This document shows, piece after piece, positions 7,021-15,712 of a stretch of 64,000 bases of DNA. The stretch's first letter is position 1; each line of letters begins with the position of its first letter. Source of the DNA: Candidatus Poribacteria bacterium. GTDB lineage: Bacteria; Poribacteria; WGA-4E; WGA-3G. Below the pieces are notes generated by a model that made no database searches, was not told the origin of the DNA, and saw only the letters and a program-made list of their open reading frames with translations. Position numbers and translations under genes: made by a program. Location: contig JAJEIE010000022.1 of the NCBI GenBank assembly GCA_022827625.1, positions 88,293 through 152,292 on the forward strand, given 5' to 3'.

Positions 7021-8016
7021 ATGAAGCAACAGATGCTCGACCGTTTTGGGCGGATCCATACGAATCTTAGAATCTCGGTTACTGATGTCTGTAACTTCCG
7101 GTGTATTTACTGTATGCCCGAAGATATGACCTTCATGCCAGACGCAGCACTGATGACCTTTGACGAGATTTTGCATTTGGCGCGCATTTTCGTTGAATTA
7201 GGTGTTAGCAAAGTCCGTATTACCGGTGGTGAACCACTCGTCCGTCCTGGCGTGCCTGCGCTCATAGAGCGGTTAACGCAGTTAGAAGGTCTGAGAGACA
7301 TCAGTCTAACAACAAATGGCATAGGGTTGATTACGCAAGCACAAGCCCTTTACGATGCCGGGCTCCGCCGTATTAATGTGAGTTTAGACACACTCAATGA
7401 AGAAAAATTCGAGCAGATGACGCGTCGAAAAGTGCTTTCACGCGTGCTTAAAGGGCTTAAAACCGCACACGAATGCGGTTTCAACCCAATCAAAGTCAAT
7501 GCTGTCGCCATGCGTGGCTTTACAGACGATGAAATTGTCGATTTAGCCACTTTCGCCCGTCAAAATGAGTATCAACTCCGATTTATCGAATTTATGCCAC
7601 TCGATGCCGATGATGTCTGGGGACGCAACATGTACATCCCCGGAAAAGAGATTATCGATAAAATCAACGCCGTTTATCCACTGACACCCGTGACCTTGAA
7701 CGGAGAGGCAAAGAGCGATACTGCTCAACGCTATCGCTTCTCAGATAACGGGAACGAGGTTGGCATTATTCCTTCTGTGAGCGAACCGTTTTGCGAAAAT
7801 TGTAACAGAGTACGTCTTACGGCTGACGGAAAATTCCGGACGTGCCTTTTCTCGCTCGTAGAAACCGATCTGCTCACGCCGCTCCGAGAAGGGGCATCAG
7901 ATGAGATAATTAGTCAACTCATCTTAGATGCCGTCGCGCAAAAAGAGGCTGGGCATAAAATTAACGCAGCAGATTTTATTAAACCAGAGCGAAACATGTC
8001 GAGGATCGGTGGTTAA
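7021..8016 (+). CDS. moaA: GTP 3',8-cyclase, molybdenum cofactor biosynthesis
   Basis: This radical-SAM enzyme makes the first dedicated step of molybdopterin synthesis, GTP to 3',8-cyclo-GTP, in the cytoplasm. The N-terminal cluster is CxxxCxxC at C24, C28 and C31 within DVCNFRCIYC. The second 4Fe-4S cluster is C258, C261 and C275 in CENCNRVRLTADGKFRTCLF. The protein ends in ...MSRIGG, the conserved double-glycine tail needed for activity. The 331-residue length is typical. It has its own promoter. The molybdenum enzyme it would serve is encoded at 25.6-29.4 kb. The SUF cluster that builds its Fe-S clusters begins about 120 bases downstream. Confidence 0.95.
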   Translation: MKQQMLDRFGRIHTNLRISVTDVCNFRCIYCMPEDMTFMPDAALMTFDEILHLARIFVELGVSKVRITGGEPLVRPGVPALIERLTQLEGLRDISLTTNGIGLITQAQALYDAGLRRINVSLDTLNEEKFEQMTRRKVLSRVLKGLKTAHECGFNPIKVNAVAMRGFTDDEIVDLATFARQNEYQLRFIEFMPLDADDVWGRNMYIPGKEIIDKINAVYPLTPVTLNGEAKSDTAQRYRFSDNGNEVGIIPSVSEPFCENCNRVRLTADGKFRTCLFSLVETDLLTPLREGASDEIISQLILDAVAQKEAGHKINAADFIKPERNMSRIGG

Positions 8017-8132: not shown

Positions 8133-8924
8133 ATGAGCAAAGACTTAGCCATTAAAGACTTGCACATCAGTGTGCAAGGCAAACCTATTATCAAAGGACT
8201 AAATTTAACTGTAAAACAGGGCGAAATTCATGCCCTCATGGGTCCAAATGGATCCGGTAAAAGTACCCTCGCTAACGGCTTAATGGGACATCCGCTTTAC
8301 GATATTGACACAGGCGAAGTGATTTTCAATGGTGTTAATGTTTTGGAACTTGAACCAGACGAACGCGCCAAACTCGGACTTTTCCTCGCTTTTCAATATC
8401 CAACGGCGATTCCAGGTGTCAGCTTGGCGAATTTCTTGCGACTTGCTGTCAGTGCAGTTCGTGGAAAAACAGGAAATGGTGCTGGTAGCGAAGGACTTAT
8501 TCCGATGCGCGAATTCCGTCGTGAACTCCGCGAGAAAATGAAACAACTTGGTGTTGACGACTCCTTCGCCAGGCGATACCTCAACGACGGGTTCTCCGGT
8601 GGCGAAAAAAAGCGCGCAGAGATTCTACAACTCGCAATGCTCGAACCCCAAATTGCTATCCTCGATGAAACCGATTCCGGGCTCGATATTGATGCCGTCC
8701 GAATTGTCGGCGAAAGCGTCAGCAGACTGGTCGGACCCGACCTCGGCGTTCTAATTATTACGCACTACCCGCGGTTGTTGGACTACATCCGGCCAGAGTT
8801 TGTGCATATATTGCTTGATGGTAGAATTGTTGAATCGGGGGGTTGGGAACTCACACAGATGTTAGAAGCAGAGGGTTACGATCCGATTCGAGAAAAACAC
8901 GGTATTGCAGAGGAAACTGAATAA
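8133..8924 (+). CDS. sufC: Fe-S assembly ATPase SufC
   Basis: This is the ABC-type ATPase of the SUF scaffold (SufBC2D). Walker [10 protein letters not shown] is at residues 37-45, the signature appears as [11 protein letters not shown], and Walker B with catalytic Glu is [12 protein letters not shown]. The 263-residue length is normal. AAGGAG lies 13 bases before the ATG. It is the first gene of a same-strand cluster and sits 50 bases before the sufB start codon. It is a soluble ATPase without transporter function and is not a candidate partner for the permeases at 32-47 kb. Confidence 0.96.
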
Positions 8925-8974
8925 ATTTGAGCAACGGTTTGCAGTATATCCGGCAATCTACAAGGAGGAATAAA

Positions 8975-10393
8975 ATGGCAACTTCTGAAAAGAATACAAT
9001 AGAAGAACTCGGAATTAGTAAAGAGTACCAATACGGGTTCCATGATGACATTAAACCCACATTCAAGTCGCGCAAAGGGTTAGACGAAGAAGTTATCAAT
9101 GAAATGTGTGACATCAAAGGCGAACCCGACTGGATGCGTCAATACCGGCTCGATGCTTATCAGATCTTCAAGCAGAAACCGATGACAAAATGGGGTGGTG
9201 ACCTGTCCCAACTCGATTTTGACGACATCTACTATTACGTCAAAGCCTCTGACCGGAGCGAACGGAGTTGGGATGATGTCCCTGATGATATCAAGAAAAC
9301 CTTCGACCGATTGGGTATCCCCGAAGCGGAACGGAAGTTCCTCGCCGGTGTCGGTGCACAGTACGATTCAGAAGTCGTATACCACAATATCGTTGAAGAA
9401 TTAGATAAAATCGGTGTTGTCTTCCTTGATACCGATACTGCTGTTAAAGAATACCCGGATCTCGTGAAGAAATACTTCGGAACTATCATCCCGTCAGCGG
9501 ACAATCAGTTCGCCGCACTCAACAGTGCCGCGTGGAGTGGTGGAAGTTTTGTTTATGTTCCACCGGGTGTGAAGGTCGAATATCCTTTGCAAGCCTATTT
9601 CCGAATCAATAGCGAGAACATGGGGCAATTCGAGCGTACACTCATCATCGCTGACGAAGGGTCACAGGTGCATTACGTTGAAGGCTGCACGGCACCGACA
9701 TATAGCAGTGAATCCTTGCACAGTGCAGTTGTTGAGATCGTTTGCATGAAAGGTTCGCGGGTGCGTTACACAACCATCCAGAATTGGGCAAACAACGTAT
9801 ATAATCTCGTTACGAAACGCGCTGTCGCTTATGAGGACGCACAGATGGAATGGGTAGATGGCAACCTCGGTAGTAAGTTAACAATGAAGTATCCGAGTGT
9901 TTATATGATGGAACCGGGCGCGCGTGGCGAGATTCTCTCCATCGCTTTCGCCAGTAAAGGGCAGCACCAGGATGCCGGCGCGAAAGTCTATCACTGTGCC
10001 CCTCATACCTCTTCGCAGATTACCTCAAAGAGCATCAGTAAAGATGGAGGACGCTCCAGTTATCGCGGGTGGGTCGATGTCGCGAAAGGTGCTAAGGGAT
10101 GCAGATCACACGTCGTCTGTGATGCACTCCTCCTTGACAAAGACTCGCGTTCGGATACCTATCCGGTCATTGAGATTAGCGAAAACGATACCCACATTGA
10201 ACACGAGGCGCGTGTCAGCAAAATCGGAGAAGAGCAGCTCTTTTACCTCATGAGCCGTGGACTTTCGGAGGAGGAAGCCTCCACTATGATTGTTAACGGG
10301 TTCATTGAACCGCTCGTGAAGGAACTCCCGATGGAATACGCTGTTGAGATGAACCGCCTCATCCAACTTCAAATGGAAGGTTCAATCGGTTAA
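8975..10393 (+). CDS. sufB: Fe-S cluster scaffold SufB
   Basis: The 472-residue protein is the SUF scaffold subunit on which clusters are built. I place the start at the ATG at 8975 ([13 protein letters not shown]) because AAGGAGG precedes it by six bases; the longer frame from TTG 8927 has no such site. Family hallmarks include [42 protein letters not shown] and, near the end, [12 protein letters not shown]. The two SufB/SufD genes sit in the order C-B-D. The 127 bases to sufD are filled by an intergenic repeat. Confidence 0.95.
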
Positions 10394-10520: not shown

Positions 10521-11882
10521 TTGCAAAAAGGCGAATTTTCAAAAGAATTTCTTCAAAAAATAACGGAAACTGAGCCAAAATGGATGCGTGAGAAGCGGTT
10601 GGAGGCGTATGCGCTTTCTGAATCCTTGCCGATGCCACATACAACGAAAGATGATGCTTGGCGCCGCACTGTTGATATGCGCACCCAAGATTACTGGCGG
10701 CGAAGTCGACGATCGCTCCGCGGCTTCGCGCTCGAAAAATATTATCCGCATGTGCCGACAAACGGTGAACAATCGGCAGAAAATGTAGACTACAACGCCG
10801 AGGGGACAGCTGGGCTGCTGGTGCAAGTTGACGGTCAACTTCAATACAGTTCCGACGCAGAAACACTGAAAGAAAAGGGGATCTACTTTGCACATCTCCA
10901 CACCGCACTGCAAGAGCAACCCGAACTCCTCCGCGACTACTTCATGACCAAGGCAGCAACCTTGGAGACGACGCTGAAAAGTGGAAATATTGCGCGACAC
11001 AACAAATTTGACGCGCTTCATGGTGCCTTCTGGCAAGGCGGTTATCTATTACATGTTCCAAAAGGTGTAAAAGTTGAACTGCCGCTCCGCGTCTATATTC
11101 GGATGTCCGAAGCGGCACATGCCGATCTATCGCATGTGCTTATCATCGTTGAAGAAGGCAGTGAGGTTGCGATTTTGGAGGACAATTCGTCTACCAATCC
11201 AGAGGCGAGCGGTTTACATAGTGGCGCAATCGAGATTTTTGCAGGACAAAACGCCAACGTAACTTATGTGCAAGTCCAAGATTGGAATCGACAGGTCTGG
11301 AATTTCGCTACGCACCGTGCTATAGTTGCCAGAGATGCGCAGCTCTGCTGGGTCACTGCTACATTTGGCAGCAGACTTAGTAAAATAAATCAAGCAGTTG
11401 TTTTAGACGGTGCTGGCAGCAGCGCACAAATGCTCGGATTGGCTTTCACGGACACTCGTCAACACTTCGATGTGAGTACGGCACAGGAACACGCTTCACC
11501 GCATACCATCAGTGATCTCTTGTATCGGACTGTCTTGAAAGATAGAGCACAAACCGCATGGGGTGGGAACATTTACGTCTATCCGGCAGCGAACCATACC
11601 GATGCCTACCAGAAAAACGATAATTTGTTGCTGAGCGAACGGGCACACGCCGACACCTTGCCCGGTTTGGAAATTGAAGCACATGAAGTTCGTTGCACAC
11701 ACGGCGCAACTGCGGGAAAGATTGATGCCGATCAGGTCTTTTACCTGATGAGCCGCGGGCTCCCTTATGCACAAGCTGAAAAACTGATTGTTGACGGATT
11801 TTTTCAACCCGTTATGGAACGTATCCCGTTAGAATCCGTTCAGGAAGAGTTAAGTACATCTATTACGCGCAAACTTAAGTAA
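10521..11882 (+). CDS. sufD: Fe-S assembly scaffold partner SufD
   Basis: The 453-residue paralogue of SufB forms the SufBC2D complex. It shares QGGYLLHVPKGVKVELPLRV, SGLHSGAIEIFAG and [13 protein letters not shown] with SufB, and has the shorter N-terminus and overall divergence expected of SufD. The start is TTG 10521, with AAAGGA ten bases upstream; no ATG fits better. It lies between repeat copies 1 and 2 and keeps the strand and order of the cluster. A second SufB is excluded by its divergence from the 8975 gene. Confidence 0.92.
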   Translation: MQKGEFSKEFLQKITETEPKWMREKRLEAYALSESLPMPHTTKDDAWRRTVDMRTQDYWRRSRRSLRGFALEKYYPHVPTNGEQSAENVDYNAEGTAGLLVQVDGQLQYSSDAETLKEKGIYFAHLHTALQEQPELLRDYFMTKAATLETTLKSGNIARHNKFDALHGAFWQGGYLLHVPKGVKVELPLRVYIRMSEAAHADLSHVLIIVEEGSEVAILEDNSSTNPEASGLHSGAIEIFAGQNANVTYVQVQDWNRQVWNFATHRAIVARDAQLCWVTATFGSRLSKINQAVVLDGAGSSAQMLGLAFTDTRQHFDVSTAQEHASPHTISDLLYRTVLKDRAQTAWGGNIYVYPAANHTDAYQKNDNLLLSERAHADTLPGLEIEAHEVRCTHGATAGKIDADQVFYLMSRGLPYAQAEKLIVDGFFQPVMERIPLESVQEELSTSITRKLK

Positions 11883-11974: not shown

Positions 11975-12316
11975 ATGAGTCAACCGAAAATTATCGCTTA
12001 TATGAAACCTGTTTGTGGATGGAGCAATGGTGTCCGTGCGATCTTCGCTAAATACGGTTTGGACTACGAAGACAGAGACATCATTAACAATCAAGACAAC
12101 TATCGTGAAATGGTTCAGAAGACGCGGCAGCCTTATCAGCCCTGCGTCCAGATTGACGATATAATACTTGCCGATGTCAGTGGCGATGAAGTGGAACATT
12201 ATTTGGTCTCAGAGGGTATTGTCCAAGCGAGTGAAGCCGAAACGGATGTTCCGACGGATCAGGCATGTGAGGACCACGGACCGTCTGCTGTGAGTATCGG
12301 CTTCCCGAGCAGATAG
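11975..12316 (+). CDS. monothiol glutaredoxin-like protein
   Basis: The 113-residue protein has a thioredoxin fold with active site CGWS at residues 14-17 (KPVCGWSNG), followed by the GSH/cis-Pro region RQPYQPCVQIDD. The family also moves electrons or carries Fe-S clusters. A monothiol-type site inside a SUF operon suggests a cluster carrier, comparable to GrxD, although the classic CGFS is not exact. Residues after about 85 form a short acidic tail with a Cys. AAAAGGAG is well placed before the ATG. It sits between sufD and sufS. Confidence 0.85.
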   Translation: MSQPKIIAYMKPVCGWSNGVRAIFAKYGLDYEDRDIINNQDNYREMVQKTRQPYQPCVQIDDIILADVSGDEVEHYLVSEGIVQASEAETDVPTDQACEDHGPSAVSIGFPSR

Positions 12317-12331
12317 ATTTATTCTTTTACA

Positions 12332-12437
12332 AGCTGTCAGCGGTCAGTGAGTTCGCCATTAACCTTAGTACTCAGGTGCGGATTGCAGTGGGCAAAACCT
12401 GTTTACAACTCCTAAGCGTCCGACTGACTGCTGATGG
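12332..12437. repeat. mosaic intergenic repeat, copy 3 (CAGTCAGC subtype)
   Basis: The gap between the glutaredoxin gene and sufS contains AGCTGTCAGCGGTCAGTGAG at its left and CCGACTGACTGCTGATGGC at its right. These are the inverted ends of the second subtype of the mosaic repeat. Confidence 0.6.
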
Positions 12438-12463
12438 CTATTTCGCATAGGATAAGGCATAAA

Positions 12464-13711
12464 ATGCATAAGTTGGAATTCCGTCCGTTTGATATCGAAG
12501 CCATCCGTAAAGATTTCCCGATTTTCACGACGGATCCACCGTTGGCTTTCCTTGATAACGCCGCCTCGACGCAGACACCACGTCCCGTCGTTGAAGCGAT
12601 GGATGCCTATTACGATACCTATCGCTCGAATATCCATCGCGGCATCTATCGGATCTCAGAGGAGGCGACAGAACAGTATGAGCGCGCAAGAGAGAAGGTC
12701 GCTCAGCTGATTAACGCACCGCGGTCGCGGCAGGTCATTTTCACGCGGAACACGACGGAATCTATCAATCTTGTCGCTTACAGCTGGGGCAGCACAAATA
12801 TCGGTGAAGGTGACGAAATTGTTCTCACCACCATGGAACACCACAGCAATCTCGTACCTTGGCAGTTACTCGCACAGCGTACGGGCGCGACGCTCCGGTT
12901 CGTTGAAATAACCGATGAGGGATTACTCGACTTCACACAACTCCGCGACCTACTGACCGAGAAAACGAAACTTGTCGCTATAGGACACGTTTCTAACGTA
13001 CTCGGTACCATCAACCCAATCCAGTCTATCATTGATATGGCGCATGCCGTTGATGCGAAAGTCATTGTTGACGCCGCGCAATCCGTCCCACACTTCCAAG
13101 TTGACGTTCAGCAACTTGACTGTGATTTTCTGGCATTCTCAGGACATAAAATGTGCGGTCCTACGGGTATCGGTGTTCTATATGGTAAATCGGAATTGCT
13201 CGAAGAGATGCCGCCTTTTCTCGGCGGTGGTTCAATGATTCGGAGCGTTGAGCGGGATGTGTCCAGCTACGCAGAACTGCCTGCTAAATTTGAGGCGGGA
13301 ACGCCAAGCATTGCCGAAGCCATTGGACTCGGTCACGCAATTGACTATATCACACAAGCGAATTTAGCAGCCATTCATGTTCACGAACAAGAACTTCTAA
13401 AATACGCGCATCAACGCTTAGAACAAATCGAAGGCATTACCCTGTACGGACCGGCACCGCATCAGAAAATGGGTGTCATCTCTTTTAACATGGAGGGCAT
13501 CCACCCCCACGATGTCGCTGGAATCTTGGATACACACGGCGTTGCTGTCCGTGCTGGACATCATTGTGCACAGCCACTCATGAAAAGGTTAGATGTCATC
13601 GCTACCGTTCGTGCCAGCCTCTATCTTTACAACACGATTGAAGACGTAGACCGCTTATATGAAGGGCTTTGCAGGGCACAGAAACTTATGACCCGGAGAA
13701 AAATAACATGA
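12464..13711 (+). CDS. sufS: cysteine desulfurase SufS
   Basis: This PLP enzyme of the group II (SufS) type takes sulfur from L-cysteine for Fe-S assembly. The PLP lysine is K229 in FLAFSGHKMCGPTG. The persulfide cysteine is C368 in RAGHHCAQPL, the SufS form of the active loop. I prefer the ATG at 12464 (MHKLEFRPFDIEAI) over 12434 because of a nearby AAGG and the fit to family N-termini. The product is 415 residues. Its TGA overlaps the ATG of sufU (ATGA), which points to translational coupling and a SufS-SufU sulfur transfer pair. Confidence 0.95.
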   Translation: MHKLEFRPFDIEAIRKDFPIFTTDPPLAFLDNAASTQTPRPVVEAMDAYYDTYRSNIHRGIYRISEEATEQYERAREKVAQLINAPRSRQVIFTRNTTESINLVAYSWGSTNIGEGDEIVLTTMEHHSNLVPWQLLAQRTGATLRFVEITDEGLLDFTQLRDLLTEKTKLVAIGHVSNVLGTINPIQSIIDMAHAVDAKVIVDAAQSVPHFQVDVQQLDCDFLAFSGHKMCGPTGIGVLYGKSELLEEMPPFLGGGSMIRSVERDVSSYAELPAKFEAGTPSIAEAIGLGHAIDYITQANLAAIHVHEQELLKYAHQRLEQIEGITLYGPAPHQKMGVISFNMEGIHPHDVAGILDTHGVAVRAGHHCAQPLMKRLDVIATVRASLYLYNTIEDVDRLYEGLCRAQKLMTRRKIT

Positions 13712-14097
13712 ACATATATCAGGAAGAATTGCTTGACCATTACGAAAATCCAAGTAACTATGGAACCTTGCCGAGATGTACTATTTCTCATGAAGAAGAC
13801 AATCCGCTTTGTGGTGATCAGATTCGCATTGACCTGCTTATTGAAGACGATACTGTTAAAGAAGTACGTTTTTGCGGACATGGATGTACGATTAGTCTGG
13901 CAGCTGCGTCTATGCTGACTGAAAAAATCGAAGGCAAAAGTCTTGATGAAGTCAAACAACTTTCAAAAGACGACATTTTGGATATGATTGGCATCCCTTT
14001 GGGTCCTGTTCGTCTCAAGTGCGCTTTATTAGCACTCAAAGTCCTCAAAGCCGGTGCGTATGGCATTACAGCTTGGCCCGGTGAAGAAGATGAGTAG
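13708..14097 (+). CDS. sufU: sulfur-transfer / scaffold protein SufU
   Basis: The 129-residue IscU-like protein has the three conserved cysteines C35 (NPLCGD, with D37), C60 (GHGCTIS) and C105 (VRLKCALL). The insertion between C60 and C105 is that of SufU, the zinc-dependent sulfur acceptor for SufS in Firmicutes-like systems, rather than IscU. The chosen start at 13708 overlaps the sufS stop; a 13-codon upstream extension lies inside sufS and has no ribosome-binding site. SufU is usually found where SufE is absent, and no SufE is seen here. Confidence 0.93.
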   Translation: MNIYQEELLDHYENPSNYGTLPRCTISHEEDNPLCGDQIRIDLLIEDDTVKEVRFCGHGCTISLAAASMLTEKIEGKSLDEVKQLSKDDILDMIGIPLGPVRLKCALLALKVLKAGAYGITAWPGEEDE

Positions 14098-14154: not shown

Positions 14155-14466
14155 ATGCCAGAATTTTATAAAGTCGCAAAAGTGAGTGAAACCCCACCCG
14201 ACACCAAGAAATTAGTCGAGGTGGATTTTGTACCGGTGCTGCTCTTCAACGTCCAAGGCGAATTTTATGCCATAGAAGACGTTTGTACACACGATGACGG
14301 TCCCTTAGCGGAGGGTTGGTTCAGTGGTGACGAAATAGAATGTCCACGACACGGTGCTCGCTTCTGCGTGAAAACCGGAAAAGCACTCTGTATGCCTGCG
14401 GTTGAAGACATCGAATGTTACACCGTCAAAGTTGAAGGCGATGACATCCTCATCAGTCTCGATTGA
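14155..14466 (+). CDS. Rieske-type ferredoxin
   Basis: The 103-residue protein is a single Rieske [2Fe-2S] domain. The ligands are C44-x-H46 (VCTHDDGPL) and C63-x2-H66 (ECPRHGARF), 17 residues apart as in NirD/BphF-like soluble ferredoxins. The start ATG at 14155 follows AAAGGA; the TTG at 14140 precedes the ribosome-binding site and is rejected. There is no membrane anchor or signal. Its place between sufU and the MIP18 gene is common in SUF clusters of several phyla. I infer an electron donor for cluster building or a first client protein. Confidence 0.92.
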   Translation: MPEFYKVAKVSETPPDTKKLVEVDFVPVLLFNVQGEFYAIEDVCTHDDGPLAEGWFSGDEIECPRHGARFCVKTGKALCMPAVEDIECYTVKVEGDDILISLD

Positions 14467-14517: not shown

Positions 14518-14820
14518 ATGGTATCTGAAGCATCCGTCTTAGAGACTATCAAAGAAAATATTATTGATCCAGAAATCGGTATTAATATCGTTGACATGGG
14601 ACTCATCTACGGTGTTGACATCAACGACACAACGGTTGACATTACGATGACTTTAACGAGTCCGGGATGTCCCGCGGGTGGACAGATTGTCAACGGCACA
14701 CAGCACGTCACACAGCAGATGGACGGTGTCGATGAAGTCAATGTCAATGTCGTCTGGGACCCACGTTGGACCATGGAAATGATGACCGAAGACGCAAAGG
14801 ACGAACTCGGCATTTTTTAA
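14518..14820 (+). CDS. sufT: MIP18 (DUF59) Fe-S assembly factor SufT-like
   Basis: The 100-residue protein consists of one MIP18 domain: IDPEIGINIVDMGLIYGV, then MTLTSPGCPAG with the conserved C51, then VNVVWDPRWTMEMM. The family helps Fe-S maturation when demand is high (SufT) or forms part of PaaD/HCF101-type factors. TAGGAGGG lies seven to eight bases before the ATG. It is the last gene before the hairpin at 14863. I use the SufT symbol because of the operon context; the short MIP18-only form cannot be separated from PaaD-like paralogues on sequence alone. Confidence 0.9.
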   Translation: MVSEASVLETIKENIIDPEIGINIVDMGLIYGVDINDTTVDITMTLTSPGCPAGGQIVNGTQHVTQQMDGVDEVNVNVVWDPRWTMEMMTEDAKDELGIF

Positions 14821-14862
14821 CTATGGGATCCTGGGCATCGTTCCACAATGTAAAGCTAAGAC

Positions 14863-14888
14863 AAATTATGCCATTTAAGGCATAATTT
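14863..14888. terminator. perfect hairpin after sufT, possible weak terminator
   Basis: Ten-base perfect arms (14863-14872 and 14879-14888) enclose the loop ATTTAA and are followed only by a broken T-tract (TTTCATTTC). Termination would be partial. The core ATGCCATT..AAGGCAT recurs at 29476-29490, so it may belong to a dispersed hairpin family. Confidence 0.5.
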
Positions 14889-14980
14889 CATTTCACGATG
14901 GTTTTTGGTTAATTTCAATACGACTGGGAAGTTGTACGCTTCTCAAAAGTCTTTTACCACTAAAACGCACAACTTTCTGG

Positions 14981-15373
14981 ATGTTTATGATAAAAAAAAG
15001 TCCGAAACTTCTTAAGAAACACGCGAATGCCTTTCAGGTAGAATGGAAAGACGGGCATAGCAGTTGGTATCCATACACCTATCTCCGTCAGATGTGTCCG
15101 TGCGCTGAATGCACAATTATCCGGCATAAAGGCAGAGATGTCCACTCCCTCTTTTCACCGCAAGGCGACGGAGATATAACGCTCATTGCGGTATCAGACG
15201 ATATTCAACCTCTTGATATCCAATTGGTCGGTCGTTATGCGCTACAGTTTAATTGGAACGATGGACACGCTACCGGTATCTATCCGTTTGAAGTGCTACG
15301 CGAGACGTGTCCGTGTCCAGAATGTGCACCGCTGCCACCGATCCAACCGGAGAAAGAAAACCCAGAAAGTTAA
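14981..15373 (+). CDS. DUF971 (GBBH-like N-terminal domain) protein
   Basis: The 130-residue protein is a single DUF971 domain. It contains WKDGHSSWYPYTYLRQMCPCAEC early and WNDGHATGIYPFEVLRETCPCPEC late; the two C-P-C-x-E-C clusters could bind metal. DUF971 is the C-terminal domain of the plant Fe-S carrier HCF101, whose N-terminal domain is MIP18. Finding separate MIP18 and DUF971 genes next to each other in a SUF locus is therefore meaningful. The start is ATG 14981 or the in-frame ATG 14987; no strong ribosome-binding site decides. Confidence 0.85.
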   Translation: MFMIKKSPKLLKKHANAFQVEWKDGHSSWYPYTYLRQMCPCAECTIIRHKGRDVHSLFSPQGDGDITLIAVSDDIQPLDIQLVGRYALQFNWNDGHATGIYPFEVLRETCPCPECAPLPPIQPEKENPES

Positions 15374-15382
15374 AAATAAATC

Positions 15383-15712
15383 ATGCAAACGCAGATCCCT
15401 GAGATTTCCGCACAAGAACTCAAACAAAAATTAGACACAGACGCATCCGTCTTGTTGCTTGATGTCCGCGAACAGAGCGAATACGACATCGTGCATCTCG
15501 AAGGTGCGCGGCTCATACCACTTAATACCCTACCGCACCACATAGAGAGTCTCCCAACAGAACAAGAGATTGTTGTCTACTGCCATCACGGACAACGAAG
15601 CCTTTATGCCACCGCCTATTTGCACCAAAACGGATTTCGTGATGCCAAAAACCTCGCAGGTGGCATCGACCAATGGGCAGCCGAAATCGATCTAACCTTA
15701 CAGAGATATTAA
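15383..15712 (+). CDS. single-domain rhodanese
   Basis: The 109-residue rhodanese domain has the typical LLDVREQSEYDIVHLEGA entry and the active-site loop C67-HHGQRS (VVYCHHGQRS), which would carry a persulfide. It ends with AGGIDQWA. The loop length of six after Cys matches GlpE/PspE-type sulfurtransferases. It begins ten bases after the DUF971 stop, so it probably belongs to the same transcript. I infer a role in sulfur relay for the SUF cluster, although small rhodaneses have many uses. Confidence 0.9.
   Translation: MQTQIPEISAQELKQKLDTDASVLLLDVREQSEYDIVHLEGARLIPLNTLPHHIESLPTEQEIVVYCHHGQRSLYATAYLHQNGFRDAKNLAGGIDQWAAEIDLTLQRY

Follow-up and report, generated by a model that had tools for sequence, protein, structure and literature searches.

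The two outer modules of the three-module protein HCF101 were found as separate adjoining genes in a SUF operon of Candidatus Poribacteria. A MIP18/DUF59 gene (14518-14820) is followed by a DUF971 gene (14981-15373), both on the + strand at the 3' end of the SUF cluster, and this pair is conserved across the order to which the source bacterium belongs. A link of DUF971 to Fe-S maturation is well supported. On balance, and with modest confidence, it is concluded that the split HCF101-type modules act in trans and that DUF971 serves as a zinc-stabilised adaptor rather than as a cluster carrier.

The window, i.e., the whole stretch of 64,000 nucleotides that was analysed, comes from a genome of 5.02 Mb in 41 contigs (95% complete). 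All genes of the locus lie on the + strand. A moaA-like radical SAM gene (7021-8016; PF04055, PF06463) is the 5' neighbour of the cluster and is followed by sufC (8133-8924; TIGR01978, 331 bits, cutoff 212.8), sufB (8972-10393; TIGR01980, 728 bits, cutoff 346.4), sufD (10521-11882; TIGR01981, 278.8 bits, cutoff 222), a glutaredoxin-like gene (11975-12316; PF00462, E 8.3e-10) with a CGWS motif read from the sequence, sufS for cysteine desulfurase (12434-13711; TIGR01979, 592.9 bits, cutoff 475.1), sufU (13708-14097; TIGR01994, 100.7 bits, cutoff 92.5, for the frame from 13669, the ATG being read from the sequence) and a gene for a Rieske-type ferredoxin (14155-14466; PF00355, E 1.2e-18). The SUF set is complete, since sufB, sufC, sufD, sufS and sufU all exceeded their NCBIfam cutoffs. 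The stand-alone, SufT-like MIP18 gene (PF01883, E 2.3e-16, 60.3 bits, cutoff 23.5) and the stand-alone DUF971 gene, which encodes a GBBH-like N domain (PF06155, E 2.6e-27, 95.8 bits, cutoff 22.8), come next, and a rhodanese gene (15383-15712; PF00581, E 1.7e-21) follows. Open reading frames, Pfam and the SUF neighbours thus all agree with the initial annotation, which had placed MIP18 and DUF971 here as separate neighbouring genes of a SUF operon. The stretch between the two genes contains one weak terminator-like site (14925-14945). A transcription stop at this point was rejected because the terminator-like sites, two against a shuffle mean of 2.0, were not in excess. The same gap holds a 26-base palindrome (14863-14888) that occurs nowhere else in the window; in relatives the gap reaches 1829 bp.

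The middle P-loop module had been described as missing from the window, and it was located elsewhere in the genome. No ParA/Mrp match was found on the window's contig (C16), and PF10609 gave two clear Mrp proteins, one on contig C4 (355 bits) and one on contig C7 (235 bits). In these proteins Pfam placed ParA at residues 61-304 of 320 and 33-287 of 305 and found neither a MIP18 nor a DUF971 domain, as the initial annotation had predicted. The P-loop and CPHC are present in the Mrp of this genome. All HCF101 modules are encoded in the genome (PF01883, PF10609 and PF06155 above cutoff), with the window's MIP18 as the single match of its kind and with two DUF971 genes; no three-domain MIP18-ParA-DUF971 protein was found in it. 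With this result and the co-occurrence in relatives described below, neither of the refuting observations named in the initial annotation was made. The second Mrp paralog (L011:6120-7037) is divergent and, as judged by eye, lies a few kb 3' of cytochrome oxidase subunit-like ORFs.

HCF101 of plants, algae and apicomplexans and the bacterial FSCA-ParA-DUF971 proteins share with the genes described here the MIP18/FSCA, ParA/Mrp P-loop and DUF971 modules and the link to SUF. In contrast to HCF101, the modules in Poribacteria are three genes at two places and not one chain. Moreover, the DUF971 of the window retains CxCxxC, whereas green-lineage HCF101 is described, in the part of the source available to us, as having lost it (PMC7980591). 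The same part of that source refers to 18 bacterial FSCA-ParA-DUF971 sequences, notes CxCxxC in this connection and describes the role that DUF971 plays in HCF101 as elusive; the word "operon" does not occur in it (PMC7980591). No description of a SUF-linked DUF971 was found in the accessible portions of the literature searched.

Conservation was studied by a search of 84 genomes of the phylum, 72 of which belong to the order, and the SUF-type DUF971 regions were fetched for the order. DUF971 was detected in 75 of the 84 genomes, the SufBD core in 77, MIP18 in 81 and a ParA match in all 84. Co-occurrence of the two genes in relatives, which had been named as a check on the annotation, was found in 66 of the 72 order genomes (65 fetched loci and the window), although these genomes are related and the per-genome counts are not independent trials. 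MIP18 preceded DUF971 on one strand in the window and in all 65 fetched loci holding both, and the spacing between the two matches in these loci was 6-1829 bp (median 99). Chance placement of DUF971 beside SUF is ruled out by this conservation across the order. The companions found on the same strand in the 65 loci were Rieske (65), sufS and sufU (64 each), rhodanese (63), sufD and glutaredoxin (60 each), sufB (59), sufC (54) and moaA (50); many of the missing ones are explained by contig ends or by the edge of the fetched stretch. Insertions of up to 8230 bp between glutaredoxin and sufS were seen in several genomes (L051 and others).

Among the other six genomes of the order, two (G019 and G020) are apparently broken at contig ends, and one (G051, 78% complete) is without a MIP18 match and without the long-type DUF971. 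In G024, DUF971 is located elsewhere and not at SUF. No DUF971 was found in G025 and G026, where SUF and MIP18 are present; therefore, DUF971 is dispensable in these two. In the sister family f7 (G006-G011), DUF971 is distant from SUF, and MIP18 is fused to Mrp in five of the six genomes (frames of 375-414 aa), unlike the Mrp of the source genome, which has no MIP18 domain.

The other DUF971 gene of the source genome (L012:6384-7183, contig C36) lies directly 3' of a dicluster-type ferredoxin gene. A full ferredoxin match 5' of this paralog and on the same strand was found in 19 of the 23 Poribacteria genomes examined, which are a subset of the paralog holders; a 24th genome, G024, was dropped since its locus (L278) proved to be the SUF-type copy. 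Of the remaining four, G044 has a ferredoxin match of remnant length, and no ferredoxin match was obtained for G033, G040 or G046. G028 carries two copies of the ferredoxin-DUF971 pair, with a partial match for the second DUF971.

Neighbourhoods outside the phylum were scanned in the best 80 of 580 relatives, of which 79 loci are not from Poribacteria. No SUF gene was found within 5 kb of DUF971 in any of these 79 loci, and SUF linkage as a general trait of DUF971 was rejected for this sample. Within 1.5 kb of DUF971, Mrp occurred in two of the same loci (L186 and L206) and a ferredoxin in one (L186), and the common neighbours were RelA/SpoT (17), ABC ATPase (9), MgtE (8) and RecO (7). In most of the DUF971 loci sampled elsewhere, no Fe-S gene adjoins DUF971. 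Matches to sufC of 41-73 bits in the scan loci were taken to be different ABC ATPases, a reading with which Pfam agrees in the one case checked, L226. The 17 loci in which DUF971 comes after RelA/SpoT are acidobacterial (L200, for example), and an aminotransferase class V gene lies 5' of DUF971 in L223. One of the two scan patterns demands DGH, so that conservation of that histidine is biased in the scan loci.

Fe-S genes were found beside DUF971 in further samples. In the Planctomycetota class of G084, DUF971 was present in 25 of 29 genomes, and MIP18-Mrp lay directly 5' of it in 7 of the 25 loci, six times as separate ORFs and once fused; in this last case (L250) Pfam finds the three domains together in 470 aa. 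For Blastocatellia (a DUF971 match in 37 of 39 genomes) and for Methylomirabilota, the phylum of G091 (39 of 40, many of the matches weak), 30 loci each were taken from the matching genomes with flanks of about 1.5 kb. MIP18-Mrp was 5' of DUF971 in 8 of the 30 Blastocatellia loci, three of which have a ferredoxin directly 3'. One of the 30 Methylomirabilota loci, that of G183 (L349:2068-12848), has a fused MIP18-Mrp-DUF971 gene that heads a complete SUF operon and is followed by sufB, sufC, sufD, sufS, sufU, MIP18 and rhodanese and, further on, by ferredoxin and Rieske genes. Some genomes may be common to several of the four samples from outside Poribacteria, as is the case for G085 (L186), G084 (L206) and G091 (L208), and the counts of the samples were kept separate.

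In a DUF971 tree of 127 rows and 122 columns, from which the DUF971 of G183 was left out and for which the bootstrap had not settled, the SUF-type (11 rows, 95/93), ferredoxin-linked (10 rows, 99/97) and f7 (5 rows, 100/93) sequences formed groups. These groups are not sisters, which points either to repeated arrival of DUF971 beside Fe-S genes or to an old link that was often lost. The Mrp-adjacent rows require three changes, and many forks are weakly resolved. Since the DUF971 sequences linked to SUF, to ferredoxin and to Mrp occupy different regions of the tree, the Fe-S link recurs across branches. This bears on the explanation that DUF971 is a small zinc-binding module of a general kind, that its task is unrelated and that its place beside SUF is inherited hitchhiking. 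The scan of the best 80 of 580 relatives, with no universal neighbour and no SUF gene nearby, agrees with it, but the recurrence of Fe-S neighbours in separate branches, the fact that the second paralog, too, adjoins an Fe-S gene and the three-domain fusions in G113 and G183 make it unlikely.

The rhodanese gene next to DUF971 suggests another explanation, namely that DUF971 works on the sulfur side and, together with rhodanese and SufS/SufU, relays persulfide sulfur through its cysteines. In agreement with this, rhodanese follows in all but two of the 65 loci, and in G013 and G014 (family f2) DUF971 and rhodanese form one ORF of 244 aa at the same SUF position (L101:13949-14683 and L103:2938-3672; Pfam finds both domains in L101, from G013). 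Likewise, none of the three f4 genomes (G024-G026) has SufU, and none has a SUF-linked DUF971; this co-absence, however, concerns one clade. Furthermore, the first cysteine cluster of DUF971 is in keeping with a metal site, several members have lost the second, and the MIP18-Mrp- and ferredoxin-linked loci elsewhere, except that of G183, had no rhodanese match in the flanks examined. A sulfur relay is accordingly considered improbable. As regards the f4 SUF clusters themselves (L106, L108 and L109), two are without sufS and sufU and one is without sufU; no NifU_N protein was found in the three genomes.

The initial annotation had also pointed to two CPCxEC clusters in DUF971 that could hold metal. 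Both are present in the window, as CPCAEC at residues 39-44 (C39 to C44; 15095-15112, + strand) and as CPCPEC at residues 110-115 (C110 to C115; 15308-15325, + strand), but the second is not invariant. The first reads CPCAEC in 67 of 68 SUF-type loci and CPCAGC in one, its three cysteines being kept in all 68, and it occurs in 54 of the 79 loci outside Poribacteria (best 80 of 580 relatives). The ferredoxin-linked paralog and the DUF971 of f7 have the first cluster only. Because the second is variable, paired CPCxEC as a defining feature of the SUF-linked form was rejected.

The predicted structure of DUF971 (53 sequences, pLDDT 79, pTM 0.66) gave 3luu as the top Foldseek match and then human gamma-butyrobetaine hydroxylase (BBOX1). 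The fold is that of the GBBH-like N domain found in 3luu and at the N-terminus of BBOX1, and the Cys-x-Cys-x-x-Cys residues align: C39, C41 and C44 of DUF971 correspond to C38, C40 and C43 of BBOX1, which we take to be zinc ligands. In contrast to GBBH, there is no oxygenase domain, and most SUF-linked DUF971 proteins have the additional C-terminal CPCPEC. Because of its match to this presumed zinc site, the first cluster looks structural; from the repeat register, His96 is a candidate fourth ligand of a Cys3-His zinc site. The metal argument is weakened by the BBOX1-like site, by the variable second cluster and by the reported loss of CxCxxC from green-lineage HCF101. That stand-alone DUF971 itself binds and carries an Fe-S cluster or iron by means of both clusters is therefore highly unlikely: the two occur together in 60 of the 68 SUF-type loci and in 36 of the 79 elsewhere (best 80 of 580 relatives), but the second is altered or lost in 7 of the 68 (unread in one) and is missing from the paralog and from f7.

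The favoured reading, in which the separate modules act in trans, can be put as follows. SufS/SufU and SufBCD build the Fe-S cluster, and at the SUF operon of the window they would do the same. The most likely carrier of the cluster is the Mrp P-loop ATPase from elsewhere in the genome, a role established for its family. MIP18 and DUF971 would most likely take part in trans at a late step, in which client proteins receive the cluster from SufB or Mrp, and this would be the counterpart of the action in cis expected in HCF101. DUF971 would probably be a small protein-binding adaptor stabilised by zinc at the putative Cys3-His site, and the paralog linked to a ferredoxin would serve that protein as its dedicated partner. 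Thus, the earlier proposal of a direct role for stand-alone DUF971 in Fe-S delivery was upheld as far as context is concerned, but direct delivery goes beyond the evidence of neighbourhood and fusion.

The comparison with HCF101 is strengthened by G183, because there a member of another phylum has a fused HCF101-like gene in its SUF operon. We tentatively suggest, as a possibility short of an even chance, that DUF971 acts generally as an adaptor in Fe-S maturation and has come to stand beside SUF, Mrp and ferredoxin genes in several separate branches, and that HCF101 represents one fusion of a SUF-operon toolkit, the parts of which remain distinct proteins in Poribacteria. If this is true, the fused gene of G183 would be a bacterial HCF101 in its native context. 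The SUF, Mrp, ferredoxin and rhodanese contexts point to candidate partners of DUF971. Since DUF971 is here a gene of its own, its deletion, tagging and assay need not involve the ATPase, which makes the role of the third module of HCF101 testable.

The MIP18 gene of the window resembles sufT in that it is a PF01883-only gene within a suf operon. It differs from SufT in its score with TIGR02945 (104.8 bits, under the cutoff of 143.4) and in its pairing with DUF971. Its translation carries TSPGCP, with the cysteine conserved in SufT, which is presumably the reactive cysteine of that protein. According to the part of the source available to us, sufT is close to sufBC in 374 of 761 genomes and has been recruited to suf operons (PMC4982691).
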